A stretch of 64,000 nt of DNA. Source: Phycisphaerae bacterium. GTDB lineage: Bacteria > Planctomycetota > Phycisphaerae > UBA1845 > UTPLA1. The position numbers were made by a program, and so were the translations under genes. How positions within the stretch are numbered: position 1 is the first letter of the stretch; each line of letters begins with the position of its first letter. Below are positions 1 through 26,781 of this stretch, one piece after another. The stretch covers positions 124,001-188,000 of the forward strand of contig JAHBXN010000005.1 in assembly GCA_019636475.1 (NCBI GenBank), written 5' to 3'. The notes below the pieces were generated by a model that was given only the letters and a program-made list of their open reading frames with translations, searched no databases and was not told the DNA's origin.

Positions 1-1142
1 CCAAGCCGTGGACGATTCAGAACCTCGGCGCTACCGACGGTGCCCAGTGAAAACGCCTCCGCCACGGACAAGCCGAGCGGCCCCCGCGCGGCTCGCTGAA
101 GCAGCAGCGCCTGGCGAGCCTCCGCGAGAAGATGACCGCCGTCATTTGAAGAACTGCCGTCAACCCCCAGTCCCACTCGACCCCCGGCGTCCAGTAAGGC
201 GCGAACCGGCGGAATCCCGCTGCCGAGTCGCATGTTCGATGACGGACAATGGGCGATGCCGGTCTTCGTTTCCGCCAGCCGACAAATGTCCGAATGGTTG
301 AGGCAGACACAGTGCGCCAGATAAACATCAGGACCCAGCCAATCGAGCGAGTCCAGCAGATCGATCGGCCGCGCCCCGAATCGATTCAGGCAGTATTCCT
401 CCTCGTCAAGCGTTTCAGCAGCGTGAGTATGCAGCAGCGCGCCGCGGGAGCGTGCCAGCGACGCGACATCTTTCATCAACTCCGGACTGACGGAGAACGG
501 GGAGCAGGGCGCCAGATCGATCCGCCGCATCGAGTGCTCCCCGCCGTCGTGGAAGCGATCCATTGCCCGTTCACAATCCTGCAAAATCGCGCGTTCGTCC
601 TCCACGCAGTCGTCCGGAGGCAGGCCGCCCGCGGAATGCCCCACGCTCATGGAGCCCCGGCAGGCGTGAATTCGCATTCCCATTTCCTCCGCCGCGTCGA
701 GAACCGCTTCCAGCCGGGCATCCGTTCCCCGCGGAAAAATGTAGAAATGGTCGCTGGTGGTCGTGCATCCGGAGAATTGCAGCTCGGCAATGCTGATTTG
801 CGCGGCAAGTTTGACGGAGGAGTAGTCGATATGTCGCCAGCGTTTGTACAACTGGGTCAGCCAGTCGAAAAGCGACGCATCCTGCACGCAGCGCAGACAC
901 CGCGTGAGCGACTGGTAAAGGTGATGATGCGTGTTGATCAATCCGGGAAGAATGACGTGCCCTGAGGCGTCGAACCGTTCACTCCGCCCGTCGGCCGTTC
1001 TCGCGGCGCCGTCGGCGCCCCCATCCCCGAGTTGGACTTCCGTGATAACGCCATCGCCGATGGAGATCGATTCGCACGGCGAAACAATCGGCGCACCGTC
1101 GCGATGTGCAATGAGCGTTCCGTTGAAAATTGTATCTGTCAT
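1..1142 (-). CDS. 8-oxoguanine/guanine deaminase-like amidohydrolase (3' end outside window)
   Basis: Metal-dependent TRZ/ATZ-type amidohydrolase, expected to deaminate a purine base such as 8-oxoguanine or guanine in the cytoplasm. The minus frame stays open for 380 codons to base 1, so the C-terminus is missing. The first residues are MTDTIFNGTLIAHRDG. The metal-site motif PGLINTHHHLYQSLTR lies near residues 65-80, HTHAAE near 235, and GLGVDGSSSNDGGHLL near 340; this Asp-Gly-Ser-x-Ser-Asn run is typical of 8-oxoguanine deaminases. The ATG overlaps the TGA of the upstream molybdopterin subunit by four bases (ATGA), so the two are probably translationally coupled. That neighbour supports a purine substrate: deamination would supply xanthine or a related oxopurine to the dehydrogenase. 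Substrate choice within the family cannot be settled by eye; atrazine chlorohydrolase-like or SsnA-like roles are alternatives. Confidence 0.8.
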   Translation of the reverse strand, partial: MTDTIFNGTLIAHRDGAPIVSPCESISIGDGVITEVQLGDGGADGAARTADGRSERFDASGHVILPGLINTHHHLYQSLTRCLRCVQDASLFDWLTQLYKRWRHIDYSSVKLAAQISIAELQFSGCTTTSDHFYIFPRGTDARLEAVLDAAEEMGMRIHACRGSMSVGHSAGGLPPDDCVEDERAILQDCERAMDRFHDGGEHSMRRIDLAPCSPFSVSPELMKDVASLARSRGALLHTHAAETLDEEEYCLNRFGARPIDLLDSLDWLGPDVYLAHCVCLNHSDICRLAETKTGIAHCPSSNMRLGSGIPPVRALLDAGGRVGLGVDGSSSNDGGHLLAEARQALLLQRAARGPLGLSVAEAFSLGTVGSAEVLNRPRL

Positions 1143-3586
1143 CGCGCCATCCGCGCATGCTCGGGCGTTAAGCGATCCAGTCCGGACATGTCCTCCCCGC
1201 GTGAGGACTCGAAGCCGTTGATCATTTCCCAGACGCGCTGAGGAGTGCAGGGAAGCCGATCCGGCATGACGCCGATTGCGTCCCCGATTGCGCCCAGCAC
1301 GGCCGGAACCGCTGCAATCAATGGCGGCTCACCAACGCCCCGCGCCCCGAAAGGTCCGCCCGGATCATCATGTTCCAGTATGACGGTCTCGATCTCCGGC
1401 ACGTCACGAAAGGTCGGCAGAATGTAATCGGTGAAATTCGGATTGAGCATGCGCCCTTCCTTCATCACAACCTCTTCCATGAGAGCCATGCCGATACCCT
1501 GTGTCGCCCCGCCCACCATCTGCCCGGCGACCGACTGTGGATTGATCGCTCGTCCGACATCATGGCATGCGATATACCGCTCAACGCGCACTTCGCCCGT
1601 TTCCACATCAACCACCACCTGCGCGATATGCGATGCGAACAAGTAGGTGATGAACGACCGAGGCGACTGGCCGGTCTCAAAATTCTCGCACACCGTGCGC
1701 GGCTTGAAAATGCCTTCGCCGGTGAGCGAATAACCCCGCTCCCGGGCAGCCGATACGACCTCGCGAAGAGGCATGTTGATCTGACGATCGAACCGCCCGA
1801 CGACGGCCCCGCTGACAAGGTCCAGTTCATGCGGATGAACCTGGAGCACCCGGCCCGCCACGTCGAGCACCTGTTCTCGAAGCTCGCTCGCGGCGATTTT
1901 CACCGCATTGCCGGTGAAATACGTCTGGCGAGTCGCCGACGACGAGCCGGATTCATGAGTGCGGTCGGTATCGGCCCAGACCACGTCAACGTCATTTGTC
2001 GCCAGACCCAGTTCTTCAGCCGCGATCTGGGCCATGATGGTGATCAGCCCCTGCCCATATTCGACGCCCCCGGTGTAAACCTCCAGCCGGCCGCCCGTCG
2101 AAAACCGTACCGTGGCTCGACTGGCATCAGGAAATCCGTCGCCATAGCCCAGCCCGAAACAGATGACACTCATGCCGACGCCGCGCCGTTGATGCGGCAG
2201 CAGCGGTGGGTCCTTCCGCCGTCCGCGATCAAACCGCGACCAGGCCGATTCGACACACTCCACGGCCGTGCAGATCGGGACCACCTGACCCGTCGTGACG
2301 CTGTCGCCGTTTCGAATCAGATTCCTCAAACGCACTTCACGACGATCCAGCTTCAGGCGTGCGGCAAGACGATCCATCATGCCCTCGTATGCGATCGCCA
2401 TCTGGCAAGCGCCGAAGCCCCGCATGGCGCCGGTCGGATTGTTGTTCGTGAAGATGCCGTACACATCGACATGGATGTTGGGCACTCGATAAGGACCGGT
2501 CGCATGGCTGGCCGCCTTGCGAAGCACGGCCGGCCCGGTCGAGGCGTACGCGCCCTCTTCCGAAAAAACAGTTATCTTGGCGGCAGTCAGAATGCCTTCG
2601 CTCGTCGCGCCGAGCGTATAGTGAATTCGAAGTGCATGGCGCTTGTGCCGCGCCCGCATCGACTCCTCCCGGCTGTAGCGCATCGCAACGGTCTTGTTCG
2701 GGTGTCGCAATGCGACCATGCCAAGGTATATCTGGATGCTGATATCCTCACGGCCGCCGAACGCCCCGCCGGTCGCCGGGCAGATAATGCGAACGGTCTC
2801 CAGCGGAAGTCCCAGCGCCAGCGCAACGAGACGCCGCTCCTCGTGTGCCCACTGTCCCGAAACCTGAATCGTGAGGTGGCGGCCGTCCCAACGAGCCACG
2901 CCGGCTTCGATATCCAGAAACGCATGATCGACGGTCTGCGTTTCAAAGGTCTCGCTGACGACCACATCCGCAGCGTCAAGTGCCGCATCGGCATCACCTT
3001 TGCGAATGCGCTTGCCGCCCATCAGATTGCCTTCCGGATGCAGCTTCGGCGCATCGGGAGCCAGCGCATCATCCATTGTTGCGATCACCGGCAGCGCATC
3101 ACACTCAACCATGACCGAATCACGGCCGAGCTGCGCCGCCCGTTCGCTTTCAGCGACGACGATGGCGATTGCATCGCCGCGATACAGGATGCGATCCTCG
3201 ACGAGGACCGGATGATCCCGGTGAATCAATCCCTGGCGATTGGTTCCGGGAGCGTCCTTCGACGTATAGACCGCGATCACACCGGGGACTTCAAGCGCCT
3301 TCTCGGCCTTCACGGACCGCAGATTCCCGTGAGCGATGTCAGCTCGAACAACCTGAGCAAACAAGTCGGCGCGATCATGAAACAGGTCCGCGCCGTACAG
3401 CGCCGCGCCGGTGACTTTCTCGACACCATCAATTCGGCGGGCATTCGTCCCCACCGGGCCGCGGATCTCCTCCTTGTACGGCGTCGTCGAAGGTTCAACG
3501 AGCGTCTCGGATGCCTGATCGGGGCGAACCGATGCGACCTCGCAAGGTCGCGAATCTCCGGATATCTCGGAAGAAGGATCCTTCAT
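1139..3586 (-). CDS. Xanthine dehydrogenase-type molybdopterin-binding subunit
   Basis: Large catalytic subunit (815 aa) of the xanthine oxidase/CoxL family. It hydroxylates a purine or aldehyde-like substrate at a molybdenum cofactor and passes electrons to the 2Fe-2S subunit. Seen in the sequence: GTNARRIDGVEKVTGAALYG at the usual N-terminal domain start, GGAFGGREDISIQ and AMRGFGACQ in the cofactor-binding region, and GVGEPPLIAAVPAVLGAI near the C-terminus carrying the expected catalytic glutamate. Length is normal for a stand-alone subunit. The ATG at 3586 lacks a clear Shine-Dalgarno sequence, and the first 45 or so residues are low in family similarity, so a later start is possible. It is third in a four-gene operon (FAD, FeS, Mo, deaminase), with an 86-base gap after the 2Fe-2S gene. 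The adjacent purine deaminase makes xanthine the likeliest substrate, but CO or isoquinoline dehydrogenase-like enzymes share these motifs. Confidence 0.88.
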   Translation of the reverse strand: MKDPSSEISGDSRPCEVASVRPDQASETLVEPSTTPYKEEIRGPVGTNARRIDGVEKVTGAALYGADLFHDRADLFAQVVRADIAHGNLRSVKAEKALEVPGVIAVYTSKDAPGTNRQGLIHRDHPVLVEDRILYRGDAIAIVVAESERAAQLGRDSVMVECDALPVIATMDDALAPDAPKLHPEGNLMGGKRIRKGDADAALDAADVVVSETFETQTVDHAFLDIEAGVARWDGRHLTIQVSGQWAHEERRLVALALGLPLETVRIICPATGGAFGGREDISIQIYLGMVALRHPNKTVAMRYSREESMRARHKRHALRIHYTLGATSEGILTAAKITVFSEEGAYASTGPAVLRKAASHATGPYRVPNIHVDVYGIFTNNNPTGAMRGFGACQMAIAYEGMMDRLAARLKLDRREVRLRNLIRNGDSVTTGQVVPICTAVECVESAWSRFDRGRRKDPPLLPHQRRGVGMSVICFGLGYGDGFPDASRATVRFSTGGRLEVYTGGVEYGQGLITIMAQIAAEELGLATNDVDVVWADTDRTHESGSSSATRQTYFTGNAVKIAASELREQVLDVAGRVLQVHPHELDLVSGAVVGRFDRQINMPLREVVSAARERGYSLTGEGIFKPRTVCENFETGQSPRSFITYLFASHIAQVVVDVETGEVRVERYIACHDVGRAINPQSVAGQMVGGATQGIGMALMEEVVMKEGRMLNPNFTDYILPTFRDVPEIETVILEHDDPGGPFGARGVGEPPLIAAVPAVLGAIGDAIGVMPDRLPCTPQRVWEMINGFESSRGEDMSGLDRLTPEHARMAR

Positions 3587-3672
3587 GAATACACGACGTA
3601 TTGGGAAAATCGCCGACCCGTAAACGGGCGACCTGACCAGTTCTCAACCCATCACAACGCGTTCAGGCCTTC

Positions 3673-4176
3673 TCACGCCCGGCACTGGCGCCATTCCTTC
3701 GCCGCGTCGCGAACCGCTTCACAGATCGATTTATAGCCGGTGCATCGGCAGATGTTGCCTTCCATCCCTTCAAAGAACTCGTCCTCGGTCGGGTCAGGTG
3801 TGCTCTCCAGAAGCACCTTCGCTGACATGATCAATCCGGGAGTGCAGTATCCGCATTGCGCCGCGCCGCTGGCCAGAAACTTTTCCTGTAGGATATGCAG
3901 CTTCTCCCCCTCGGCGAGACCCTCGATGGTCTCAATGCGGCAGCCTTCCATCTGAGGCGAAAGCACAAGACAGCTGTTCGTCGCTTCGCCATCGACGATG
4001 ACTGTGCATGAACCGCATTCGCCTTCGAGGCACGAGCCTTTCGTTCCGGTCAGTCCCAGCCGATCCCTTAAAGTGAAAAGCAGGGTCTCATCGACCGGTA
4101 CTTCGAGATCAACCGGCGCGCCATTGACGGTGCATCGGAGTCGCCACGAGGCATTGCAGACCCGTCGTTCATTCAT
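3673..4176 (-). CDS. Xanthine dehydrogenase-type 2Fe-2S subunit
   Basis: Small iron-sulfur subunit (167 aa) that carries electrons from the molybdenum site to the FAD subunit. Two cluster motifs are visible: the plant-ferredoxin-type CLEGECGSCTV near residues 48-58 and, in the C-terminal helical domain, CGYCTPGLIMSAK followed by CRCTGYKSI. These supply the eight cysteines expected for two 2Fe-2S clusters. Length matches the family (150-170 aa). Its ATG overlaps the stop codon of the upstream FAD subunit by four bases (ATGA). No signal peptide is present, so the enzyme should be cytoplasmic. Confidence 0.93.
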   Translation of the reverse strand: MNERRVCNASWRLRCTVNGAPVDLEVPVDETLLFTLRDRLGLTGTKGSCLEGECGSCTVIVDGEATNSCLVLSPQMEGCRIETIEGLAEGEKLHILQEKFLASGAAQCGYCTPGLIMSAKVLLESTPDPTEDEFFEGMEGNICRCTGYKSICEAVRDAAKEWRQCRA

Positions 4177-5006
4177 GCTGCCGTCTCCTCGGCGGCCTGT
4201 TCATCCCGCAACTGGGTGAGCAATCGCCGCGTCAGCACGCCGCACATTGCACGCCGATAGGCCGCCGACGCGCGATGGTCGTCAATCGGCGCGACCTCCA
4301 ACATGGCCGCCCGCGCCGCCTCCGAAATCGTCTCGTCCGAAATGCCGCCCTGCGTAATGATCGATTCCGCTCCGCGCGAACGAACGACCGTCGGGGCGAC
4401 ACAGCCGAAGCTGATTCGCACATCGCCGCGCGGAGAGAGGCCTACCGCACAACACACAATGCTGATGTTGATTGAACCACGCTTGCCGATCTTGTACCAG
4501 GCGGTGCGCCAGTCCGTCGGGAAAGAGACCCCCGTAATCAGTTCATCGGGCTGCAACGCGGTCTGTCGAAATCCTCTGAAGAAATCCGCGATCGAGATTG
4601 TTCGCGAGCCCCGGTCGGCATTGGAAAGTTCGACGAGCGCGTCAATCGCCAGAAGTGCAACACACCCGTCACCCGCCGGAGAGGCCGTGCCGAGATTCCC
4701 GGCGATCGTCCCCCGATTGCGAATGGCGGGCCCGCCGACCGTCATGGCCGCGTCCGCAAGGCAGCGGACAGGCAATCGTCCCAGTTGCGAGAAAGTCGCG
4801 CCGCCCATCACCCACAATGAATCAGTCTCGCGCCGCACGGCGCGAAAACCCTCGATCCGCGAGAGATCGAGAAAATGCGGCGGATGCCGTGACGATCGAT
4901 TCATCGCGACGACGATGTCAGTCCCCCCCGCGATGGGAAGTACGTCACCGCCCATCTCCGCGCGAATACGCAGGGCCTCGGCGACGTCATGCGGTTGGTG
5001 GAACAT
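4173..5006 (-). CDS. Xanthine dehydrogenase-type FAD-binding subunit
   Basis: FAD-binding medium subunit (277 aa from the chosen start) of a molybdenum hydroxylase; it takes electrons from the 2Fe-2S clusters and hands them to NAD or another acceptor. The FAD-binding motif PIAGGTDIVVAMN is near residues 30-42, and GGPAIRNRGTIAGNLGTASP is the second, strongly conserved flavin motif. The C-terminal CO dehydrogenase flavoprotein domain follows. The frame is open upstream to a TTG at 5174, but the family normally begins a few residues before the P-x-x-x-x-EAL segment, so the ATG at 5006 is preferred; neither site has a strong ribosome-binding site. It is the first gene of the operon and diverges from ribH. 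The AT-rich stretch around 5188-5202 is the only obvious place for divergent promoters. Confidence 0.88.
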   Translation of the reverse strand: MFHQPHDVAEALRIRAEMGGDVLPIAGGTDIVVAMNRSSRHPPHFLDLSRIEGFRAVRRETDSLWVMGGATFSQLGRLPVRCLADAAMTVGGPAIRNRGTIAGNLGTASPAGDGCVALLAIDALVELSNADRGSRTISIADFFRGFRQTALQPDELITGVSFPTDWRTAWYKIGKRGSINISIVCCAVGLSPRGDVRISFGCVAPTVVRSRGAESIITQGGISDETISEAARAAMLEVAPIDDHRASAAYRRAMCGVLTRRLLTQLRDEQAAEETAA

Positions 5007-5254
5007 GATCTTGCTTTCGATTTGCCGAGCTACCAGGCGGGCACTACCCAGTGGCATCCCGCGTGCCCCTCGCGTCGATTGTCGTCTCTCCGCCTGATCA
5101 CATGCCCGATCCACCGAGCCGGTCAGTTCCCGTCCAAACATGCGCCGCACGATACGTCGGCTGTCGCCCCCCAACCCCGCTTACGTCCGAATAAATGATA
5201 CGGATGGAATCGGCGTGCGACAAGTTGCTCCGGCAAGAGTTAGAATCGCGGCAT

Positions 5255-15674: not shown

Positions 15675-16478
15675 CTATTGGCGGACCGTGCTGAGCATCT
15701 GACGAATCGAGGCCTCGTGCATGGCGATCGTTTTCGCCGGACCGAGCGCCCGGAAGAACCAAGGCCCGCCGCCGGTTTCGACCACTGCCGCCAGCATCCG
15801 GTAGTCCGACGCCGTCGGGTCGCTGCGCTGGCCGGTCATCATGTTCGATGCGACGTATCGGCCGGTGACATTGAGCACGGTCACCTTCATGCCGCCTGCC
15901 TGGAATTCATCCACGGTCGAGGCTGATTCAGGAAGCGCGGAGCCGTCCTCGCCAACGAACATGCCCTTCCAGCGTTCGAGATTTGCTTCGACCGAGCCGC
16001 CCTGCCCTGGCCCGAAATAGAAGACGATCAATTCGGCGTCTTCCGGATCGCCTTCCGCCCGCGGCAGACCGTAGTTGGCCTTTCGCAGGGACGATGTGAC
16101 CGGCTTGACGGACCACGAATCAGGCGTTTCGTACTGAAGTTCCGAGCCCTTTGATGGCGCGGTCATGGGTTCGGGCCCGCCACCGAGCGGCGGGTGACCG
16201 GGAGGGAGTGCCGCAGCACCGGCATCGGCCGGCCTGGCCGGAGGCGTTGAATTGAGCGGCGGATGCCCCGGCGGCAGGCCTTGCTGGGCCGAGGACGCGG
16301 GAGCGGCATCCTTGTTCAGATACTCGGCCAGCGCGTCGGAGTCCCGGGTCTTTGTGTTGGACGAAGGGGACACGGCTGCCGGCGTCTGCTGACTGGGTTG
16401 TTTATCGCAGGCGAAACCGACGACCAGGGCGGTAGCGCACATGCCATATGCGAGTGATTTCAAAAACAAGCGCTGCAT
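15675..16478 (-). CDS. Lipoprotein with duplicated LPPGHPPL motif
   Basis: Predicted lipoprotein, 267 aa: [20 protein letters not shown] then GFAC, a good lipobox with Cys 24. Residues 25-115 are a Pro/Ala/Ser-rich linker that contains the motif LPPGHPPL twice (near 69 and 91). The C-terminal 150 residues are a compact alpha/beta domain that starts [13 protein letters not shown] and includes [21 protein letters not shown] do not recognise a named family. The gene lies 86 bases downstream of the 20-haem cytochrome gene on the same strand, so it may be co-transcribed and could be an accessory of that complex. The histidines in the repeated motif could bind metal or haem, but that is speculation. 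Confidence 0.72.
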
Positions 16479-16564
16479 GATTGGGGTTCCTTTGTCGCCC
16501 TGGGGTGCATCGGTGCCATGTCCGATGCCTTCGATTCAGGGCCTGTCTCGGCTCGATTGCAGAT

Positions 16565-19500
16565 TCATGGCAGAGCCGAACCTCGGTCCGACGCGCCTGA
16601 GAGCGATTCATCCGCTCCGCGGCGGCGGCTCGGGTCGTGATAATACAGGAAACGCCATAATCCGTCAGCACCGTGACAAGTCGTACAGGCATTCGGCGGC
16701 ACGAACGGGCGCAGCAGAAGGCGAAGGGGCCTTCGCTGTTCTGGCGGCATCCCGGCCAACCGGACAAGCTGTTGCGGATCGAGAACCTGGCCGTGCGGCA
16801 CGTGGCATGTGCGACAGGTGATCCGGCCGCGAGGATCGACGTCTCCGTCATCGTTAAACAGCGGTAACGCAGACTGCGCGCCGTCCACGAAGAGGCTTGT
16901 CAGCGGCAAATCGGGATGCGTGGCGACCGCGGGCGGATGCGATGTCCCGCCCTGGCGATGACAGGCGGAGCAATATCGATCCTGTCCGGTCATCCAGCCA
17001 TCTTCCACGCTGACGATGCCTGCCGGGGGTCTTGTCAACAGGCTTCGCTCGACGACGGACGAATCGGCATGAAGCGAATGACAGGCCGCGCAGGCGGTTG
17101 AGCCGGATCCGAGATGTCCACCGTGCGGATCGTCCGCCGCCAAGCCCTGACCGATGATCGCGCGGGCGGAATCGGGATTGATCGCACCGTGGCTCGTGAG
17201 GAGCACCTGACTGACATCGCTATGGCACTGCACGCACAGGCTGCCCGGGGACTGGCCTTCCGCGACGCGCGCGAGCGACGGGGTTCGTGCATGTGGATCG
17301 TGACAGGTGCGGCAACCGATCTGATCGGCGCCGGCGGCGTCGCAACTTAAGGGGAGCGTCCCGGCTCGAGAGGTATCGTTGATTTCTCTCGGATGGACGG
17401 CGGCGAATGATCCGCCGGACTCCCAACCCGCCGCCACGTGACATGCCGTGCAGGCCGCCTCGGCAATCGCAGCGGCGGTCGTTGCTTCGCCGTGGGCATT
17501 CATCCTGGGCGGCACGCGAAAGAGGTCCGCCGGCGACGAACCATGTGGCTTGTGGCACGCCGTGCAGGCATCGCCGGTGAGTGACAGGTTCAGCGCGGCA
17601 GTCGAGACCGAACCTCCGGGGTGGGCATTGTGAAAATCCGTTGCGGACTGATCGTGCATCGGGCCGTCCGCCGGAAGCGTGGCGCGAACGATCGTCGCGC
17701 CCGTGATGGCCTCGCGAATTCGAGACCGGGCCGCGTGCTCCGCGTTTTTCGGCGCGACGGCCGTAAGGTCGTGTGGGCCGCCGAGGAGGCGTCCCTGTTC
17801 GGCGTGACAGGCGAGGCATGTGTCCGTCGGTGTGCCACGCAGGTAGCACCCGAATTGCGTTTCGTGGGGGTTATGGCAGCCGACGCAATTGTTGCCCGGA
17901 TGGTTGTGCGAGGGGAGCGCACGGCTCTGGGCACAACGACCCTGCTGATGGCAGGTGATGCACTGGCCGATGGCGTCGCTTGGGTGGGGTTCGGGGGCGC
18001 GGGCGTAGCGATGGAACATATGGCAGGCACTGCAAGGTCCGCCTGATTCGGGGGTCATTCCGAGGCGATTTTTCTCAGTGGCGAAATTGGTGCGCAGGTC
18101 GTGGGAGGTTCCGAAGAGGGATACTTTTTCCGAGTGGCAATTGATGCACATTTCGCTGTTGTGCAGGTCGGCGGCAAGCATGAATCGCTCGCCTTTGCCA
18201 TGATGCAGCTTATGGCAGGACAGGCAGATCAGCTTTTCTCCGTCGCCGATTCGGGTGCCCATGCGCTCGATGGCCGCCTTCTGCTGCGCGTTGACGACGG
18301 GGCTGAGCGGATGCTCGGCATGGCCACCTTCGCGAAACATGCCGGGCCGCATCATTCCGTGGCATGTGACGCACAGCTCATTTGATGTCACGCCCATGAC
18401 CAACAAGTGATCGGTTGACGAGCCGTGCGGCGTGTGACAGACCTGACAGGTTATCTCCCGCGAATTCGGAGCGGCCTTTGCGCCGGCCGCGATGAGCGCA
18501 TCGGGGACGGGCCACGGCATGCCGCCAGTGGGATGGGTGCCAAATCCGACGCCGCGCGTGTGATCCTCGTGGCAGCCCATGCAGAGCTGACTTGCGGCGT
18601 TTTCAACGCGCAGAAAGACCGAGGTACTCAGATCGCCGGTGAAATTCCCGCCGGTGTGAGCCGAATGACAGGTGCGACACATGATTTTGCCGTCGGCGAG
18701 GGGCAGTTCACTGGGGACCTTCATGTAGTCAGGCGGCGCGATGCCGGTCTGATGGCCATGTTCGAGCCAGACACGGCGGCGCGAATCCGCGATGGACCCA
18801 TCGTGACAGGAGATGCACACCTCTGATCGGCTGACGTGGGGCAGTTCAGGCGTTGAAGGAGGCGGATCGACAATGGGTGTGGACTGGCCGTCCTTGAGCG
18901 GCGACATCCATTCCATGTGGCAGACGGTGCAGCCGCGCGCTTCGCGGCCGAAGAGCTGTGCCTGCGATCGGCGCTCCGTCGTCCGCGGAATGACGATGGG
19001 TCCACGGGTGATCTGACAAGCCCGCGCGCGATTGGACGTCAGCTCGGTGACGTACAAACGATCTTCCTGGATCGCGATGCCCATCGGCGTTTCGAATTTG
19101 AATGGATTTCCGGCACGATCCCGGACGACATCGATAAAGCCTCCGCTCGCATTGAAGACGTGGATGACCCTGGTGACGCTGTCGGACACCCAGATCTGAC
19201 TCTGCGAATCGACCGCGACCCCCTTGGGCCGATACAACTCGCCGGGAAGTATGCCGTAGGCGCCAATCGATCGGGCGGGACGGCCATCGGCGAAGTACAT
19301 CGCGACTCGGCCGTTGATGACGTCGGTGACGAGGGGCTGACCTTGATCGTTCGTCGCGATCATGAAGGGATGATTGAAATTTCCCAATGACTCGCCAAAA
19401 CGCCCGAAGGCCGTCTGCTCGCCGGTATCGAGGTTGAGTCGAATTATGCGGTGATTGTCGTTGTCGACGATCCAAGCGGTCCGGCCATCCGGGGACAGAG

Positions 19501-20080
19501 CGATGTCTGTCAAATCGGGAGTGCGACCATCGCCAGCCGGATTGATGGCGAAGACGTCCGCAAGCGACCCGTCTGATTCGAGGGAAATGATGCGGACATG
19601 GTCTGCGTCGGCCAGCCAAAGCCGATCTCGGTTATCCACGGCGATCCCGATCGGGCGTCCCAACGGAATGTCACCGGCCTGATGAAACGATCGCAGCAGT
19701 GTGCCGTCGCTTGAGAATTCAAGCACGCGGCTGTTCACTCCGTCCGCCACGAAGACGCGCCCATCGGAGCAGGCGGCCACGTCCGTCGGCATCATCATCG
19801 CGGAATCCGGCGAACCACGATATTCGACGAAATCCTCGCTGAGCATGAACGGAGTCTGCTCGGCGAGGACTCCGAGCGGGGTGAACGATAGGGCAAGAAC
19901 GAATGCGAAAAATCTCGCAGCCCGTTTGCTTGGTGAGGAGCTGTTCCAGTTCCGGCCGCGCGAAGCACAGAGGGTGTCGCCACTTCGCGACTGCACGAAA
20001 CTGTCGAGGTTTGCAGCAGCGAGATGGCGCATGAGCAACGTGAATGCCGAAGAAATCCATGGATCAGACGTCGGATCCAA
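16565..20080 (-). CDS. NHL beta-propeller fused to a 20-haem cytochrome c
   Basis: Exported electron carrier of 1171 aa. A signal peptide-like segment (RAARFFAFVLALSF, cleavage near VLAEQ) is at residues 54-75. Residues about 85-355 form NHL-type propeller blades (for example GIAVDNRDRLWLADADHVRI and PKGVAVDSQSQIWVSDSVTR). From residue 384 to about 1140 I count 20 CxxCH haem-binding motifs, from CTVCH to CTTCH, roughly one per 38 residues, with many additional histidines for axial ligation. Several repeats carry CHxPHG, as in doubled-CxxCH cytochromes. Start is uncertain: the first codon used is a TTG at 20080, and the ATG at 20032 is an alternative; neither has a Shine-Dalgarno. A perfect TATAAT at 20122-20117 suits either. 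Divergent from a NapC-like cytochrome gene, which suggests joint function in periplasmic or surface electron transfer. Terminal acceptor unknown. Confidence 0.88.
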   Translation of the reverse strand: MDPTSDPWISSAFTLLMRHLAAANLDSFVQSRSGDTLCASRGRNWNSSSPSKRAARFFAFVLALSFTPLGVLAEQTPFMLSEDFVEYRGSPDSAMMMPTDVAACSDGRVFVADGVNSRVLEFSSDGTLLRSFHQAGDIPLGRPIGIAVDNRDRLWLADADHVRIISLESDGSLADVFAINPAGDGRTPDLTDIALSPDGRTAWIVDNDNHRIIRLNLDTGEQTAFGRFGESLGNFNHPFMIATNDQGQPLVTDVINGRVAMYFADGRPARSIGAYGILPGELYRPKGVAVDSQSQIWVSDSVTRVIHVFNASGGFIDVVRDRAGNPFKFETPMGIAIQEDRLYVTELTSNRARACQITRGPIVIPRTTERRSQAQLFGREARGCTVCHMEWMSPLKDGQSTPIVDPPPSTPELPHVSRSEVCISCHDGSIADSRRRVWLEHGHQTGIAPPDYMKVPSELPLADGKIMCRTCHSAHTGGNFTGDLSTSVFLRVENAASQLCMGCHEDHTRGVGFGTHPTGGMPWPVPDALIAAGAKAAPNSREITCQVCHTPHGSSTDHLLVMGVTSNELCVTCHGMMRPGMFREGGHAEHPLSPVVNAQQKAAIERMGTRIGDGEKLICLSCHKLHHGKGERFMLAADLHNSEMCINCHSEKVSLFGTSHDLRTNFATEKNRLGMTPESGGPCSACHMFHRYARAPEPHPSDAIGQCITCHQQGRCAQSRALPSHNHPGNNCVGCHNPHETQFGCYLRGTPTDTCLACHAEQGRLLGGPHDLTAVAPKNAEHAARSRIREAITGATIVRATLPADGPMHDQSATDFHNAHPGGSVSTAALNLSLTGDACTACHKPHGSSPADLFRVPPRMNAHGEATTAAAIAEAACTACHVAAGWESGGSFAAVHPREINDTSRAGTLPLSCDAAGADQIGCRTCHDPHARTPSLARVAEGQSPGSLCVQCHSDVSQVLLTSHGAINPDSARAIIGQGLAADDPHGGHLGSGSTACAACHSLHADSSVVERSLLTRPPAGIVSVEDGWMTGQDRYCSACHRQGGTSHPPAVATHPDLPLTSLFVDGAQSALPLFNDDGDVDPRGRITCRTCHVPHGQVLDPQQLVRLAGMPPEQRRPLRLLLRPFVPPNACTTCHGADGLWRFLYYHDPSRRRGADESLSGASDRGSALP

Positions 20081-20116
20081 TTAAAAAGACCCGCAGTCGT
20101 GTTGAAACGCGGGTGA

Positions 20117-20122
20117 ATTATA
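20117..20122 (-). promoter_or_regulatory. -10 element for the 20-haem cytochrome gene
   Basis: Perfect TATAAT on the minus strand, predicted start near 20110. The -35 region is weak. It sits in the 175-base region shared with the divergent NapC-like cytochrome gene, so a shared regulator could control both. Confidence 0.45.
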
Positions 20123-20255
20123 TCGAAATGGTGAGTACGATCACGCGATATTTTTGAGTCGTCCGGCGAACGGACGATGCCCGGCCTTTGCGGTGAGCGC
20201 CGGCGAACCGAATGAATCAGACCTGGTCGGTCACGAAGTTGAAACGGAGTGGAAG

Positions 20256-22112
20256 ATGAATCAGGGAAACACGAAGGGTCCATTTCTCTCACCGGCCGAA
20301 CCGGTCAACGGCGGATCGTCGTCCGACGGGTCGAGCGACAAGGTGACGTCATCGAAGGATTCAACTGATTCCTGTCAGAATGCCGCGACGCCTCCGGGCA
20401 AACCACGATGGCGAGTGATAGCCCGCAAGGCGTGCATCAGCGGATTGTTGCTGATGGTGCTTGGCGCACTGGGTCTGGGTGGCGCGGAATACTACACGGC
20501 GCGGCCTGACTTCTGCGGGACCTGCCACGTGATGGACCCGTACTATCTTTCCTGGTCGAGCGACAAGCACGGGTCTGAGCACCATGTGAAATGCATTGAG
20601 TGCCATTACGCGCCCGGGGAAAAGTACACATTCAAGGCGAAATTCAAGGGACTCTCGCAGGTTGCCAGCTATTTCAGCGGTCGATATGGCTCGGCGCGGC
20701 CTCGTGCGCACGTTTCGAATGCGAGTTGCCTGGTTTCGGGGTGTCATGGAGACAATGCGTTTCGGGAAAAGAAGCTGATGCTCGGCAAGGAAGGCACCGA
20801 AAAGCGACTCGTCGGCGACAAGATGACAGATGTCGAACGGCATCCGACCGTGCAATTCGTACACGAGAAGCACCTCGGCGGCGCGGAGCGGCTGGGGGAA
20901 ACCGACGCTCAGATTCTGGAGATCGAGACACGCCTCAGGGCGCAACTCAGCCCTGAAGCCATGCGGGAGGTCGTCGACGCGAGCAAGTCGATCCTTCCGT
21001 CGGCGGAACGCGACGGCGAACTCACCGATCTTGTGCGGCGCGGCGTCATCGCGCCGGAGTTCGAGGAGGACGCGAGACAGCTTCTTCAACTGGAGCATCG
21101 ACGGCTGAGACTGGAGCAACTGCACGATCTGAACTGCACCGCCTGCCACACCTATGACGCCAGCGGGCAGAACCACTTCGCAGTTGCGCTGACAACCTGC
21201 TTTACATGCCACTTCACGAATCAAACATTTAATTCAGACACCGGCCGCTGTCTGACCTGTCACGAAGCGCCGACGCGGCAGTTCATTGTTCACGGGACCA
21301 CGACGACGACCGACGGCGTGACGAAGACCGCCATGATGGATCATCGCGAGATCATAGACCGCGGCATCAACTGTGCGAGCTGCCATTTTGATGTCATCCA
21401 GGGCGATGCCGTCGTCAGTGTCCGTGACTGCCAGCGGTGTCATGATTCCGACAAGTTTCTGAAGGACTTCGCGGATCGTGACACGCGGACGGTCTCCGAA
21501 TACCACCGTATCCACGTTCATGGTCAGCGCGCTCACTGCCTCGACTGCCATCGCACCGTCAAGCATGAGTTGATCTCCGCCGAGGAGACGACGGCGAGTG
21601 GTGATTTCCTGCGGCCCGTCCTCAACGATTGCCAGCACTGTCATCCGAAGCACCATGAGGAGCAGGTGACGATGCTCATGGGTGAGGGCGGCAAGGGACC
21701 TGTTCACCCGATGCCCAACGCCATGTTCGGATCCCGCCTGAACTGTCGCGGCTGTCATACGCAGTCCGGCAGCGACTTCAAGGGGGACCGGCTCATCAAG
21801 GCAACGCAGGCGACGTGCGTGGCATGTCACAGCACAGACTACGAGAAGCTTTTCAACCAGTGGATGAGCGAGATCGAAAACTACCTTAGCGAAGCGGAGG
21901 CCGCGTTGAAACGGGTCGACGCCAAGGTGGCCGAGATGCGCGGGGCCGGGACTGAACCGGCTGCAGAGACGCTCGCGCTACTGGAGCAGGCACGGGCAAA
22001 CATTCACTATGTCGCGACCGCCAATGGCATCCACAACAAGAACTATGCGATGCAACTACTGGAGATGAGCATCCGCGATCTGGACGACATGATCCTACGC
22101 TTGTCGCAATGA
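20256..22112 (+). CDS. NapC/NrfH-like membrane-anchored 12-haem cytochrome
   Basis: 618 aa. A Ser/Asp-rich cytoplasmic N-terminus (about 50 residues) leads to one membrane helix, ACISGLLLMVLGALGLGG (about 59-76), directly followed by RPDFCGTCHVMDPYYLSW, the NapC/NirT quinol-oxidase motif. I count 11 CxxCH motifs plus one CX4CH (CLVSGCH), so 12 predicted covalent haems facing the periplasm. The segment between haems 3 and 4 (about 120 residues) is haem-free and helical, and the last 90 residues are a haem-free coiled-coil-like helix. NapC/NrfH proteins have four or five haems; this is much larger, so it may combine quinol oxidation with further electron storage or transfer. Start: GGAG six bases before the ATG at 20256. 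Likely partner: the divergent 20-haem protein. Confidence 0.87.
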   Translation: MNQGNTKGPFLSPAEPVNGGSSSDGSSDKVTSSKDSTDSCQNAATPPGKPRWRVIARKACISGLLLMVLGALGLGGAEYYTARPDFCGTCHVMDPYYLSWSSDKHGSEHHVKCIECHYAPGEKYTFKAKFKGLSQVASYFSGRYGSARPRAHVSNASCLVSGCHGDNAFREKKLMLGKEGTEKRLVGDKMTDVERHPTVQFVHEKHLGGAERLGETDAQILEIETRLRAQLSPEAMREVVDASKSILPSAERDGELTDLVRRGVIAPEFEEDARQLLQLEHRRLRLEQLHDLNCTACHTYDASGQNHFAVALTTCFTCHFTNQTFNSDTGRCLTCHEAPTRQFIVHGTTTTTDGVTKTAMMDHREIIDRGINCASCHFDVIQGDAVVSVRDCQRCHDSDKFLKDFADRDTRTVSEYHRIHVHGQRAHCLDCHRTVKHELISAEETTASGDFLRPVLNDCQHCHPKHHEEQVTMLMGEGGKGPVHPMPNAMFGSRLNCRGCHTQSGSDFKGDRLIKATQATCVACHSTDYEKLFNQWMSEIENYLSEAEAALKRVDAKVAEMRGAGTEPAAETLALLEQARANIHYVATANGIHNKNYAMQLLEMSIRDLDDMILRLSQ

Positions 22113-22123
22113 GAGCGGCGGCG

Positions 22124-23722
22124 TCAAATTCCGGGCAGCAACACCGTGCGAACGGAAACGATGGCCGACGACTGGCGCAGCTCTTCCAGCATCGTATCGG
22201 GCAAAGCGGCATCGCATTTGATGACCATCAGCGCCATCTTGTCGCGCCGTGATAACATCATGTCAGCGATGTTGATGTTTCGCCGGCCGAACAGGGTTCC
22301 GACGGTCCCGATGACGCCCGGGCGGTCGTCATTGAAAATCATAACGAGGAAGCCCTCCGGCACCATTTCCATCCGGTAGCCATCGATGGCAAGAATGCGC
22401 GGGCGATTGTCGAGAAAGACGGCGCCCTGCACCTCGTGAAACTCCTGTCCGCGCTCGAAGCGCACTTTGACCATATCCGGAAAGTCCATTCGAGACGACT
22501 GATTGACATGTCGGACCTCGATGCCGCGCTGTTCGGTGAACGGCCGCGCGTTGACGAGATTGAGACGAGCCTCGATGTGCGGATTCATCAATCCGACAAC
22601 CGCCTGCAAAGCCAGCGTCGGCCCGAGCGACGCTAGTGATTCGCCTCCGGCAGTGGTGACTTCGACGCGATCGACGCCTTCAGCAGCCCAAGCGGCGATT
22701 ATGGCGGCCATGCGCCCGGTCAGATCGAGCAACGCCCGGTCGCGCGCCGACAGGTCAGTCGGCAGACCGGTTACATTGACGGCATTCCGTATTGTGCCAT
22801 GAATGAGAAAGTCCAGCATTTCATCGACGGCCTCGGTCGAAACAGCAAGCTGTGCTTCCTGAGTTGATGCGCCGAGGTGTGGCGTGAGCACCACATTTCT
22901 GGCGGACAGCAGCGGGCACGATTTCGGTGGTTCGCACTCGAAGACATCCACGGCCGCGCCGGCGAGTGCGCCAAGATCGAGCGCCGCCGCCAATGCAGCC
23001 TCGTCAACCAATCCGCCGCGAGCGCAATTGATCAGGACGGCGGACTTCTTCATTTTTGCCAGTCGGGCCGAGTTGATGAGATTTCGCGTATCGTCGGACA
23101 GCGCGGCATGCAGCGTCAGACAATCGACCATGGGCAGGAGGTCGTCGACCTGCTTAACGACCGTCACCCGGCCATCCATCGCACTTTCAGCACGGATGAA
23201 GGGATCGAACGCGAGCACCTTCATCTGGAAAGCGAGCGCCCGCTCGGCCACCGCGCGACCGACCCGGCCCAGGCCGACAATGCCAAGCGTCTTTCCGGCG
23301 AGTTGTTCTCCGACGTAGTCGCCCCGCTTCCAACCGCCGCCCGCCACATGGCTGTGTGCGGACGGAATTCGCCTCATGAGCGCAAGCATCATCGCCATGG
23401 TGTGCTCGGCGGTTGAGATCGTGTTGGCGTCGGGCGTGTTCATGACGAGCACGCCGGCGGCTGTCGCGGCGGCCAGATCGACATTGTCGACGCCCACGCC
23501 GGCGCGTGCGATGCCGCGTAGGCGGCCGGATCTGGCAAGCACCTCCGCGGTGACTTTGACGCCGCTGCGAATGATCAAACCGTCGTACTGACCGACGGCA
23601 TCGGCCAGGTCTTCCGGAGAGAGTCCGACCCGAACGTCGAATTCAATACCGGCCGCCTGCCGCAATCTGGCGAGTCCTTCTTCAGCAATGGGATCAGCGA
23701 TGAGGATTTTTAGTGGAGACAT
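22124..23722 (-). CDS. serA: D-3-phosphoglycerate dehydrogenase, long form with ACT domain
   Basis: First enzyme of serine synthesis, oxidising 3-phosphoglycerate with NAD. 532 aa, the length of long-type SerA. N-terminal catalytic parts begin MSPLKILIADPIAEEGLARL; the NAD-binding motif GKTLGIVGLGRVGRAVAERA is near residue 138; NCARGGLVDEAALAAAL near 230 holds the conserved arginine region; LTPHLGASTQEAQLAVS near 280 has the catalytic histidine. An allosteric intervening domain and a C-terminal ACT domain (VMIFNDDRPGVIGTVGTLFG) follow, allowing serine feedback. The ATG at 23722 matches the family N-terminus; the frame extends upstream to 23803 without conservation. It is the last of three consecutive dehydrogenase genes on this strand and the most SerA-like. 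It ends 11 bases from the convergent cytochrome gene. Confidence 0.93.
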   Translation of the reverse strand: MSPLKILIADPIAEEGLARLRQAAGIEFDVRVGLSPEDLADAVGQYDGLIIRSGVKVTAEVLARSGRLRGIARAGVGVDNVDLAAATAAGVLVMNTPDANTISTAEHTMAMMLALMRRIPSAHSHVAGGGWKRGDYVGEQLAGKTLGIVGLGRVGRAVAERALAFQMKVLAFDPFIRAESAMDGRVTVVKQVDDLLPMVDCLTLHAALSDDTRNLINSARLAKMKKSAVLINCARGGLVDEAALAAALDLGALAGAAVDVFECEPPKSCPLLSARNVVLTPHLGASTQEAQLAVSTEAVDEMLDFLIHGTIRNAVNVTGLPTDLSARDRALLDLTGRMAAIIAAWAAEGVDRVEVTTAGGESLASLGPTLALQAVVGLMNPHIEARLNLVNARPFTEQRGIEVRHVNQSSRMDFPDMVKVRFERGQEFHEVQGAVFLDNRPRILAIDGYRMEMVPEGFLVMIFNDDRPGVIGTVGTLFGRRNINIADMMLSRRDKMALMVIKCDAALPDTMLEELRQSSAIVSVRTVLLPGI

Positions 23723-23858
23723 AGTCTGAAAAACAATCGCTCGCTTGGAGTTGTCAGCCTCTTTGCCGTGTTCACGGATCGATCGAATTCCGCAGCCGCT
23801 CATGCCGCGCGGTTCAGGCGTTTGTCTGAACGGCCGCCCCTAACAGGGAATTGCGCGG

Positions 23859-25091
23859 TCATGGCCCCGCTGGACCGGCCAGGGGCTTCACTTCGACCTT
23901 GATGACCTTGTCCTTCATTCCGGCAATTGCTTCAATCAGGGTGGAAGCGGGCGTCTTGTCAAGCTGGATGATCGCCAAGGCGGCTTCGTACCCCTGATAG
24001 ATCGTGTTGCTCATCTGCTTCACGCTGATATTTGCGCGACTGATCACATCGAGCACGCTAGCGAGGACACCCACTTTGTCATAATGCCTGACGACAAGCT
24101 GGCACGCCGCGTTGCAACGCGTTTCGATGTTTACGCAGTGCAAGACCTCGCCCGTCGCGGCGAAGACCTTCGCGATCCGCACAGCCTCGTCGGCGATAGC
24201 CTGCTGGGCTTCATCGGTGGACGCGCCAATGTGATGCGTCGCGTACACGACGCCGCCGGCTCGAATGATCTCCGGATGAAACTCCGCCTGGCCCACGCCC
24301 GGCTCCTTCGGGAATACATCCAGTCCGGCTCGAATCTGTCGATCGCGAATGGCGTCCAGCAGCGCGGAATAATCGAGGACATCCGCCCTCGCGGTGTTAA
24401 TCAGATAGGCGCCGGGCCGAAGCTGCTCGATCACTTCGGCGCTGATCAGGTTTCGGGTCTCGGGAGCGGCTGCGACATGGACCGTGAGAATATCGCATCG
24501 CGCCGCGGCCTCAGCCGGGCTTCCGCAGCGAATGACGCCCAATCGCGTCGCGTCGTCGTGGGTCAGCGATCGGCTGTAGGCCACCACGTTCATTTCAAAC
24601 GCCCGCGCCCTTGCGATGACCGCCCGACCTATCTCTCCGGTACCGATGACCCCCAGTGTGCGTCCCTTCAGGCCGCGCGCCTTTGAGTATTCCTTTTTGT
24701 TCCACGTTCCCGCGCGAAGATCGACCGTGGCGTCCACAATCCGCCGATCGAGCGCGAGGATTAGCCCGAAGGTCAGTTCGGCGACGGCAACCGCGTTCTT
24801 ACCGGGACAATTCGCGACGGCAATGCTGCGCCCGGATGCCGCCGCCACATCGATCGTGTTGTAACCAGCTCCCGCCCTGATGATGAGACCCAATTCTTCC
24901 GAAGCCTCGATCGCATCCCGGGGCACTTCGGTGCCGCGGACAATCAGGATGTTGCATCGACTCGATGCCACGGCCTCACGCAGCGCGGCATCCTTCAAAG
25001 CAGGCTCATACTTCACTTCAAAACCGGCGGTTCGCAGCTCGTCCAATCCGCCCGCTTCAAACTGATCGGCTACCAGGACCCGTAATGCCAT
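23859..25091 (-). CDS. SerA-like D-2-hydroxyacid dehydrogenase with short ACT domain
   Basis: NAD-dependent D-isomer-specific 2-hydroxyacid dehydrogenase of 410 aa. Key parts: LIIRAGAGYNTIDVAAASGR (substrate-binding loop with Arg), GRTLGVIGTGEIGRAVIARA (Rossmann motif), YLINTARADVLDYSALLDAI, and VVYATHHIGASTDEAQQAIA (catalytic His). A C-terminal ACT-like domain (VRHYDKVGVLASVLDVISR) is present, but the intervening domain of the long form is missing, so this resembles the short, ACT-only SerA type. Start: GAGGAG eight to nine bases before the ATG at 25091. It lies upstream of the long serA (137-base gap to its chosen start). A role in serine synthesis, or with another phosphorylated hydroxyacid, is possible; substrate not determined by sequence alone. 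Confidence 0.87.
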   Translation of the reverse strand: MALRVLVADQFEAGGLDELRTAGFEVKYEPALKDAALREAVASSRCNILIVRGTEVPRDAIEASEELGLIIRAGAGYNTIDVAAASGRSIAVANCPGKNAVAVAELTFGLILALDRRIVDATVDLRAGTWNKKEYSKARGLKGRTLGVIGTGEIGRAVIARARAFEMNVVAYSRSLTHDDATRLGVIRCGSPAEAAARCDILTVHVAAAPETRNLISAEVIEQLRPGAYLINTARADVLDYSALLDAIRDRQIRAGLDVFPKEPGVGQAEFHPEIIRAGGVVYATHHIGASTDEAQQAIADEAVRIAKVFAATGEVLHCVNIETRCNAACQLVVRHYDKVGVLASVLDVISRANISVKQMSNTIYQGYEAALAIIQLDKTPASTLIEAIAGMKDKVIKVEVKPLAGPAGP

Positions 25092-25277
25092 CCAACTGAC
25101 TCCTCAATCGCACAAAACTCACATCATCCGGCGGTCCGATTATCCACATCGCAGCGCGCCTGGAATGGGCATCATGCACTGTCGCCGGGCATCCTCGCTT
25201 GCCGCGCGCCGGCCGTCAACGGACCGAATCCCGTACGACCGGCGCAGCGAGTTTTCAACAATTTCAGGAAAACGACG

Positions 25278-25311
25278 CGGCCCCGCCAAACGGTCGGTTT
25301 GCGCGGGGCCG
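25278..25311 (-). terminator. Hairpin, probable terminator, in the 336-base gap between dehydrogenase genes
   Basis: CGGCCCCGC (25278-25286) plus CAAAC (25287-25291) pair with GTTTG (25297-25301) and GCGGGGCCG (25303-25311), with a 5-base loop and one bulged base. On the minus strand it is followed by CGTCGTTTTCC, a weak U-run. I see no gene in the rest of 25092-25427. Confidence 0.5.
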
Positions 25312-25427
25312 TGGTGAGGAGAGAGTGAGGCTGGATTTGTCGCGCCGGACGCCGCCGCGCGGACTTCGCGGTCATGGGGTGTCCGGCTGCCGCTGTTCAT
25401 TCAAGCCGACGGCGATTGCCACGGCGA

Positions 25428-26414
25428 TCAGCCACCGACCACGTGTACTTTCTCCGGATTGACGCAGTGCAGAAATTCGTCGTGGTCGCGATACGCAGCG
25501 ATCACTCGGATCATCTCCTCTGCAACCGCGTCCTGGGCCTGATGGGTCGAGGCGCCGACATGGTGCGTGCCGTACAGGTGCGGCTCGTGACTGATGGGAT
25601 CCTTGAACTCGGGATCCGTCGCAGTCGGCTCCAACTCGTACACATCGAGCGCGGCCCCTGCAATGTCGCCGCAACGCAGCGATTCTGCGAGCGCCGTTTC
25701 GTCCACCACCCCGCCGCGACTGCAATTGACCAGATAGGCCGTCGGCTTCATCAGAGCCAATTCACGCCGACCGATCATGTGGCGAGTCTGCATTCCACCT
25801 GGGACATGGAGCGTGATGAAATCAGCCTCCTCAATCAGGTCGTCAAACCTTGAATACTTGACGCCGAGTTGCTTCTCAAGTTCGGGCCGGCGAATCACGT
25901 CGTAATACATGACATTCATTCCGAAGGCGGCCGCACGGCAGGCCACTTCCTGTCCGACACATCCCAATCCGATGATGCCGAGCGTGCGGCCTTTGAGTCC
26001 GAGCGCTTCGCTGCTGTATTTTTTCTTGTTCCAGACTCCGCGCCGCAGGTCGTCTGTTTCGTCAACGATCTGCCGATCGAGCGCGATCATGAGTCCGATC
26101 GTCAATTCAGCGACCGCGACCGAGTTCATTCCCGGACAATTGCAGACCCGAATTCCGAGTTCATCGGCCGCAGCGACGTCGATGGTATCGAAGCCAGACC
26201 CGGCGCGAATGACGAGTTTTAGCCCGTGGCCCGCCTCCAACACGGGACGGGGAACCTTGGTTGAACGGACCACCAGTACTTCACAACCGGTTTCGGCAAC
26301 GGCGTCGGCCAAGTCTTTCCCCGTCAGGCCGGTCCTGCTGAAGACTTCGCAGCCCATTGACTTGAGTCTGGAAATGGCGAAGTCCGGAATTTTGTCAGCG
26401 AGCAGAATTTTCAT
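25428..26414 (-). CDS. SerA-like D-2-hydroxyacid dehydrogenase without ACT domain
   Basis: 328 aa, NAD-dependent D-2-hydroxyacid dehydrogenase. Segments: LVIRAGSGFDTIDVAAADEL, Rossmann motif GRTLGIIGLGCVGQEVACRA, NCSRGGVVDETALAESLRCG with the conserved Arg, and LYGTHHVGASTHQAQDAVAE with the catalytic His. It ends soon after the catalytic domain and has no regulatory domain. The protein closely follows the neighbouring ACT-containing enzyme (both contain WNKKxYS and a G-L-K-G-R-T-L-G-x-I-G run), so these two are probably duplicates. Start: a full AGGAGG precedes the ATG at 26414. It is the most upstream of the three tandem paralogues; a terminator-like hairpin separates it from the next. Confidence 0.88.
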   Translation of the reverse strand: MKILLADKIPDFAISRLKSMGCEVFSRTGLTGKDLADAVAETGCEVLVVRSTKVPRPVLEAGHGLKLVIRAGSGFDTIDVAAADELGIRVCNCPGMNSVAVAELTIGLMIALDRQIVDETDDLRRGVWNKKKYSSEALGLKGRTLGIIGLGCVGQEVACRAAAFGMNVMYYDVIRRPELEKQLGVKYSRFDDLIEEADFITLHVPGGMQTRHMIGRRELALMKPTAYLVNCSRGGVVDETALAESLRCGDIAGAALDVYELEPTATDPEFKDPISHEPHLYGTHHVGASTHQAQDAVAEEMIRVIAAYRDHDEFLHCVNPEKVHVVGG

Positions 26415-26781
26415 GCGGCACCTCCTCACGAACGATTGCACACCACAATCCCGACTGCATTGATTTCAGACCCGGTGGAGCGGACTGATTGCGCACCCGG
26501 GTTCATGTACCAGGATGGCGCCGGGAGCCGCTGAATTCCGCCGTGTTTGAAGGACAGCCTGAGGAATTCAGGGCAATTGTCGTGCCATCGTCCGGAACGG
26601 CGCCGAAGGAACGCTTCAAGCACGAAACAGTCCTGAAAGCGGAAGCCTGCCCACTCCGGGGGACAAATCACCCAAACTCGTTATCATCTCCGAAGCTGAC
26701 AAGCGATTGGCCGCCGTATCTTTCCGCACTTCCGTGGAACAACGCGCTTTAATGCGGAAATCTCAAACGGAACGAGGCGAC

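Follow-up and report, generated by a model that had tools for sequence, protein, structure and literature searches.

The window, a stretch of 64,000 nucleotides from a Phycisphaerae genome, contains two divergently oriented genes for multihaem c-type cytochromes, one of which is followed by a gene for a lipoprotein-like protein. The features of this region were as follows.

15675..16478, minus strand: lipoprotein-like protein of 267 aa with lipobox Cys24, two PPGHPP motifs and a conserved C-terminal domain
16565..20080, minus strand: fusion of an NHL six-bladed propeller and a 20-haem c-type cytochrome, with a signal peptide and 20 CXXCH motifs
16670..18931, minus strand: 20-haem domain, spanning the stretch between the first and the last CXXCH, its sites invariant in 21 homologues
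19000..19849, minus strand: NHL propeller domain of the 20-haem protein, from the AF2 model and Foldseek
20256..22112, plus strand: 12-haem membrane-anchored NapC/NrfH-like cytochrome of 618 aa with one TM helix
21111..22092, plus strand: C-terminal part of the 12-haem protein, with nine haem sites and a helical tail, apparently related to the OcwA/NrfA superfamily

A recount of open reading frames and motifs bore out the ORFs, strands, positions and haem counts of an earlier sequence-only reading of this DNA, including its figure of at least 32 haems on two genes. In addition to the 20 CXXCH motifs of the 20-haem gene, the 12-haem ORF, which begins at ATG 20256, has 12 sites, namely 11 CXXCH and one CX4CH (CLVSGCH); the CX4CH site is haem 3, and haem 1 has the form CXXCHxM. 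The start of the 20-haem gene is ambiguous: the 175 bases said to be shared by the two genes hold for TTG 20080, but ATG 20032 gives a gap of 223 bases.

The HMM search of the pair proposed in that reading recovered both NHL and NapC/NirT. The 20-haem ORF matched NHL PF01436 (E 2e-18) and PF09699 (E 7e-37), its Pfam families being NHL, Paired_CXXCH and cytochrome c7/c3, and the 12-haem protein contained NapC/NirT PF03264 (E 5e-10, over the cut-off) and cytochrome c7/c3. The NCBIfam equivalogs NrfH, DmsE, GSU2203 and ScyF were rejected because none reached its curated cut-off; the NrfH equivalog score of the 12-haem protein was 41.5 of 134 bits.

The HPP-motif lipoprotein was also confirmed beside the 20-haem gene. 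The protein and its PPGHPP motif are conserved, and in several relatives its gene lies close to that of the 20-haem protein; a Pfam search of the ORF at 15675–16478 gave no match. Promoter and terminator scans gave no signals above chance level, and a DNA-pattern search for two tandem double motifs, with a pattern that was too strict, found none. Elsewhere in the window, three consecutive D-3-phosphoglycerate-dehydrogenase-like genes (559, 410 and 337 aa) were predicted on the minus strand at 22124–26441, and look-alikes of the large and FAD subunits of a xanthine/CO dehydrogenase-type molybdenum hydroxylase at 1139–5174.

Linkage and co-occurrence of the two cytochrome genes

The distribution of the two genes was determined in 17 genomes of the family and 114 genomes of the order. 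In the family sample the 20-haem gene was present in 11 genomes, nine of which also had the 12-haem gene; in the order sample the 20-haem gene was present in 48 genomes, the 12-haem gene in 25 and both in 24. The co-occurrence in 24 of the 25 genomes with the 12-haem gene (Fisher p 2e-10, 114 genomes) is to be read with the relatedness of the genomes of the order in mind, which makes this and the other co-occurrence p values overstate independence.

The sequence-only reading had proposed comparing the context of the pair in other planctomycetes and had allowed that the genes might be unlinked there. They were directly adjacent in 20 of the 25 genomes with the 12-haem gene, as divergent neighbours in 19, with aligned ends 142–424 bases apart, and co-directionally in one. 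In the other genomes, the genes were co-directional and 3 kb apart (one), far apart (one) or on different contigs (three, two or more of them fragmented assemblies), and in one the 20-haem match was not found; these categories total 26 for 25 genomes because the best matches in each genome were used to score adjacency. The results support the view that a quinol-linked membrane cytochrome beside a 20-haem carrier is a conserved unit.

Architecture of the 20-haem and 12-haem proteins

All 20 proximal His residues of the 20-haem protein were invariant in 21 aligned homologues, in which 22 further His were at least 90% conserved. In 13 aligned homologues of the 12-haem protein, 12/12 proximal His and the CX4CH site were conserved, together with 14 further His. 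The invariance of the haem sites indicates that neither motif array is due to chance. About one conserved extra His per haem in the 20-haem protein suggests bis-His haems throughout and, as far as the sequence goes, fits a carrier with no obvious substrate site. A truncated or degenerate copy of a known enzyme, an outcome the sequence-only reading had considered, was rejected because the protein is intact, with every haem site invariant and some 22 further His kept.

Structure prediction, also proposed for both proteins, was informative for the propeller, the AF2 model of which was confident (pLDDT ~90) and matched Thin/TRIM NHL domains in Foldseek (E down to 1e-23), but not for the haem regions of either protein, which were poorly modelled (mean pLDDT ~57). 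Reliable modelling was confined to the propeller and, in the 12-haem protein, the C-terminal helices, and no rod shape is therefore argued for the 20-haem protein.

The NHL propeller assigned to the N-terminus of the 20-haem protein is fused to it here, but it is a separate subunit in some relatives. Propeller and multihaem chain are fused into a single gene in 25 planctomycete loci and are encoded by separate adjacent genes in L139, L140, L141, L142, L146, L148, L152 and L156; in the Deferribacterota loci L153–L155 the NHL gene is separate from an adjacent 28-haem gene. A tree of the multihaem domain requires 3–4 changes between the fused and split states and its root is uncertain, so that it does not settle whether fusion or splitting came first. 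Given the split genes in relatives and the confident model of the NHL domain, the propeller is most likely a docking subunit of the 20-haem carrier. Second matches that cover the multihaem chain only were seen in five genomes that also have the main gene (G426:C215, G500:C141, G504:C393, G433:C7 and G447:C22); they are open frames of ~865–1035 aa and are likely to be propeller-less paralogues.

The description of the 12-haem protein as NapC/NrfH-like was right for its start. Hydropathy predicted a single N-terminal hydrophobic helix (TM 59–77), C87, C90, H91 and M93 of the haem 1 motif CXXCHxM were invariant, PF03264 was matched in 13/13 homologues, and a profile search matched the N-terminus to NrfH (PDB 2j7a, E 7e-6). 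The TM helix and CXXCHxM of the NapC/NirT/NrfH proteins are thus present; the compact 4- or 5-haem periplasmic domain is absent, and 12 sites and a long C-terminal extension are found instead. In the profile search the last five haems (8–12) and the helical tail matched OcwA (PDB 6i5b, E 4e-5), and hhalign aligned the 12-haem profile with a nonahaem family of contig C4 of the same genome (probability 96.9), which itself matches OcwA (E 1.6e-23), MccA and NrfA. A Foldseek search with the low-confidence model of the 12-haem protein placed octahaem nitrite reductases and NrfA first (prob up to 0.99, E only 0.2). On these similarities, the 12-haem protein appears to be an NrfH-like anchor joined to an OcwA/NrfA-related part and is not a plain NapC/NrfH protein. 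A layout of three NrfH-like, four putative c554-like and five NrfA-like haems would be attractive.

The OcwA, nonahaem-family and Foldseek matches would also suit a quinol-linked reductase that joins an NrfH-like dehydrogenase to a nonahaem unit of the OcwA/NrfA type containing an open-coordination haem and that acts on nitrite, hydroxylamine or some other small oxidant; such an enzyme would be fed or drained by the 20-haem protein, with no link to the surface. In close orthologues, moreover, a His-His pair follows CQHCH next to haem 10, near the distal, active-site His-His pair of OcwA (HH380/381; PMC6703420). This pair is reduced to one His in the wider planctomycete homologues and lost in L101, which makes ligation a likelier role for it than an active site. 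In addition, the 14 conserved distal His suffice to ligate every haem, the 12-haem protein has no CXXCK, and the structure model is of low confidence. A reductase is therefore considered unlikely, and a relay function of the 12-haem protein is preferred.

NapC-like proteins with 11–17 haems and a CX4CH third site were found across Planctomycetota (L095 9205–10869, L098 8616–10208 and L100 8540–10579). In L095 and L098 the neighbouring genes encode b561 fusions with 10–11 haems and doubled-CXXCH proteins with 13; this is a second respiratory cluster, distinct from the one described here.

Partner genes and the proposed electron path

In several family members, the gene beside the 20-haem gene encodes a membrane protein with eight c-haem sites and an FdnI/b561-type domain (CbcL-like), and it is followed by a gene for a small membrane cytochrome with three sites and by genes for two lipoprotein-like cytochromes with nine and seven sites. 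Within the family, closely matching sequences for the b561 protein and for the small cytochrome occurred in precisely those 11 genomes that carry the 20-haem gene. Across the order, 44 of the 48 genomes that carry the 20-haem gene also had the b561 oxidase, as did 1 of the 66 that lack it (Fisher p 1e-25). The 20-haem gene thus tracks the b561 oxidase (44/48) more closely than the NapC-like gene (24/48). The b561 oxidase of this genome, on contig C4, has eight c-haem sites, matches PF01292 (E 1e-11) and the FdnI chain 1kqf_C (E 4.5e-9), and shares with CbcL, MtrH and MtoC an N-terminal multihaem part and a C-terminal HydC/FdnI-type b cytochrome; simple hydropathy gives it four TM helices, signal peptide aside, against six in the CbcL type.

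The electron-transfer system that the sequence-only reading had drawn from the divergent pair therefore stands as a conserved unit but is not the whole system. In this genome, the b561 protein, the small cytochrome and the 9-site protein are encoded on contig C4 (L104) and the 7-site protein on C1 (L106). The parts of the system are spread over four contigs (C5, C4, C12 and C1) and so do not form one operon here. Neither oxidase was found beside the 20-haem gene in 5 of 27 long-flank planctomycete loci (L121, L128, L131, L136 and L151), and in three of these five, the flanks of which were read, the 20-haem gene had no cytochrome neighbours. The absence of a terminal reductase, as claimed earlier, holds within the window, but contig C4 encodes an OcwA/NrfA-family nonahaem protein.

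Related clusters extend beyond the planctomycetes: the core order 6-haem, b561, 3-haem, NHL and 28-haem was also found in the Deferribacterota loci L153–L155. Two of these loci (L153 6811–20623 and L154 3900–20523) contain a large cytochrome gene cluster of ~15 kb, with 6-haem, b561, 3-haem, NHL, 28-haem, 8-, 7-, 7- and 8-haem genes and a gene for a candidate outer-membrane protein of 414–421 aa.

A cluster on contig C12 (L014 10254–18260) encodes a candidate porin (762 aa) and NHL, 11-haem, 4-haem and NHL/8-haem proteins; the 11-haem protein has 11 CXXCH and one CX3CH. Every one of the 11 family genomes that carry the 20-haem gene also has the 11-haem gene, as do three in which the 20-haem gene is absent. 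A scan of named genomes identified loci in which porin or 11-haem, b561 oxidase and 20-haem genes are clustered (L127, L137, L139, L144, L145, L148, L152 and L156). The profile of the candidate porin had no match in the PDB and one relative gave a sub-threshold MtrB_PioB match; the assignment of the C12 protein as a porin rests on its gene context.

Alongside the gene content, linkage and fused or split states observed, we infer a localisation, contacts and an electron path, and we consider it probable that the pair is the inner-membrane and periplasmic part of a trans-envelope electron-transfer chain ending in a Uet-like conduit. The 12-haem protein would be held in the inner membrane by its one helix and would exchange electrons with the quinone pool at the NrfH-like haems. 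The 20-haem protein would serve as a periplasmic multihaem wire, with the propeller most likely docking a partner protein, and would receive electrons from the 12-haem protein or from the second, CbcL-like b561/multihaem oxidase. From there, electrons would pass to the porin/NHL/11-haem outer-membrane conduit, and from it to cytochromes on the cell surface and to a partner outside the cell, the flow along the chain being export or uptake. The transfer of quinol electrons through the NapC-like protein to the 20-haem carrier, as first suggested, is favoured by the conserved quinol-linked neighbour, but the b561 oxidase is also a candidate donor; the acceptor, formerly given as external or periplasmic, would likely be reached through the Uet-like porin conduit encoded on another contig.

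It is rather improbable, in our estimate, that the 20-haem protein instead belongs to a purely periplasmic respiratory chain, for example of nitrate or hydroxylamine chemistry, to which the porin cluster is unrelated. Such a chain would agree with a molybdopterin oxidoreductase/octahaem/cytochrome b cluster on contig C17 of this genome, with the location of the porin cluster on another contig and with its presence in three family genomes lacking the 20-haem gene; it is at odds with the clustering of the 20-haem gene with porin and 11-haem genes in several relatives, and none of the neighbours of the 20-haem gene was recognised as nap or hao. The C17 cluster (L105 3648–10124), which encodes an octahaem HAO-like cytochrome, cytochrome b, a tetrahaem protein and a molybdopterin oxidoreductase whose N-terminus is Tat-like, is possibly a nitrogen-respiration module and a further candidate acceptor branch.

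The trans-envelope chain could also run inward, electrons from Fe(II), a mineral, a cathode or a partner cell reaching the quinone pool by way of the conduit and then the 20-haem protein, an alternative that concerns direction only and overlaps with the chain proposed here. NapC/NrfH-type proteins usually oxidise quinol, and Deferribacterota, in which related clusters occur, include Fe(III) reducers; both points count against inward flow, to which we give about one chance in four by way of judgement. Inward flow is consistent with the presence of Uet in cathode-oxidising Tenderiales and of PCC3 in Fe(II) oxidisers (PMC10734462, PMC5566968) and of CbcL/MtoC homologues in both oxidisers and reducers (PMC6295460). 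As survey data place proteins of the CbcL type in reducers and oxidisers alike but ImcH in reducers alone (PMC6295460), the direction is left as export or uptake.

More broadly, and tentatively, Phycisphaerae and some Deferribacterota may share a conduit built around a propeller-docked, periplasm-spanning wire of 20–28 haems, with two interchangeable quinol oxidases in Phycisphaerae, the CbcL-like b561 fusion and a new 12-haem NrfH-OcwA-like class, serving the wire, which would lead to the Uet-like pore. Quinol oxidases tied to a single giant periplasmic cytochrome would bear on how electrons cross the periplasm, and an NrfH-like anchor with an OcwA/NrfA-like nonahaem part would add an architecture to the quinol dehydrogenases. 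General porin-cytochrome hits were already on record for Planctomycetota (PMC10732223, PMC13264449) and were all that had been reported for this large, uncultured order (PMC10732223); the genes described here would give it a defined, testable gene set for the exchange of electrons with the exterior.

Comparison with known systems

The sequence-only reading held that the combination matched no known pathway. The pair, the fusion of NHL and 20-haem domains and the 12-haem NrfH/OcwA-like architecture were undescribed in the open-licence literature searched, which is weak evidence of novelty, but gene clusters of this kind are already known to encode NHL proteins next to multihaem cytochromes (PMC10734462, PMC10376724, PMC9769857), and giant periplasmic cytochromes of the PCC3 type and CbcL-like oxidases are known as well.

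NrfH (PDB 2j7a) resembles the 12-haem protein in its N-terminal TM helix, the CXXCHxM of haem 1 and the haem 2 region, but has only 4 haems in 159 aa, whereas the 12-haem protein is 618 aa long. The C-terminal five-haem module and helix bundle of OcwA (PDB 6i5b, PMC6703420) resemble the C-terminal part of the 12-haem protein; OcwA, a nonahaem terminal reductase, comes, however, from a Gram-positive bacterium, is located at the cell surface and lacks an NrfH-like anchor, and the sequence similarity is weak.

The Uet systems of Ca. Tenderia electrophaga and Gallionella comprise UetJ with 11–12 motifs, the tetrahaem UetA, the NHL proteins UetH/I and the porin UetC (PMC10734462). Compared by published architecture, the C12 cluster is similar in its candidate porin, 11–12-haem cytochrome, NHL and 4-haem proteins, whereas the 20-haem NHL fusion, the b561 oxidase and the 12-haem NapC-like protein are not described in Uet (PMC10734462); the ORFs of L014 with 200 aa or more included none resembling trihaem UetDEG or the peptidyl-prolyl isomerase UetB.

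PCC3 is similar, by architecture only, in combining a giant periplasmic cytochrome, a porin and a b-type inner-membrane protein (PMC5566968, PMC10734462). Its periplasmic cytochrome has 21–27 haems and is thought to be able to span the periplasm (PMC5566968, PMC10734462), and its cluster also includes an extracellular multihaem cytochrome. In contrast to the system described here, an NHL domain is unreported in PCC3, and the inner-membrane protein is of a 5-TM HX13H type and not a b561/multihaem fusion.

ImcH of Geobacter has 3 TM helices, a CX3CH motif and 7 haems (6–10 in the class; PMC6295460), and the 12-haem protein, with 1 TM helix, no CX3CH and 12 haems, was rejected as a member of that class. 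The likeness to Geobacter CbcL and ImcH (PMC6295460) lies in the pairing of a b-type fusion with a NapC-related protein as alternative multihaem quinol oxidases of the inner membrane.
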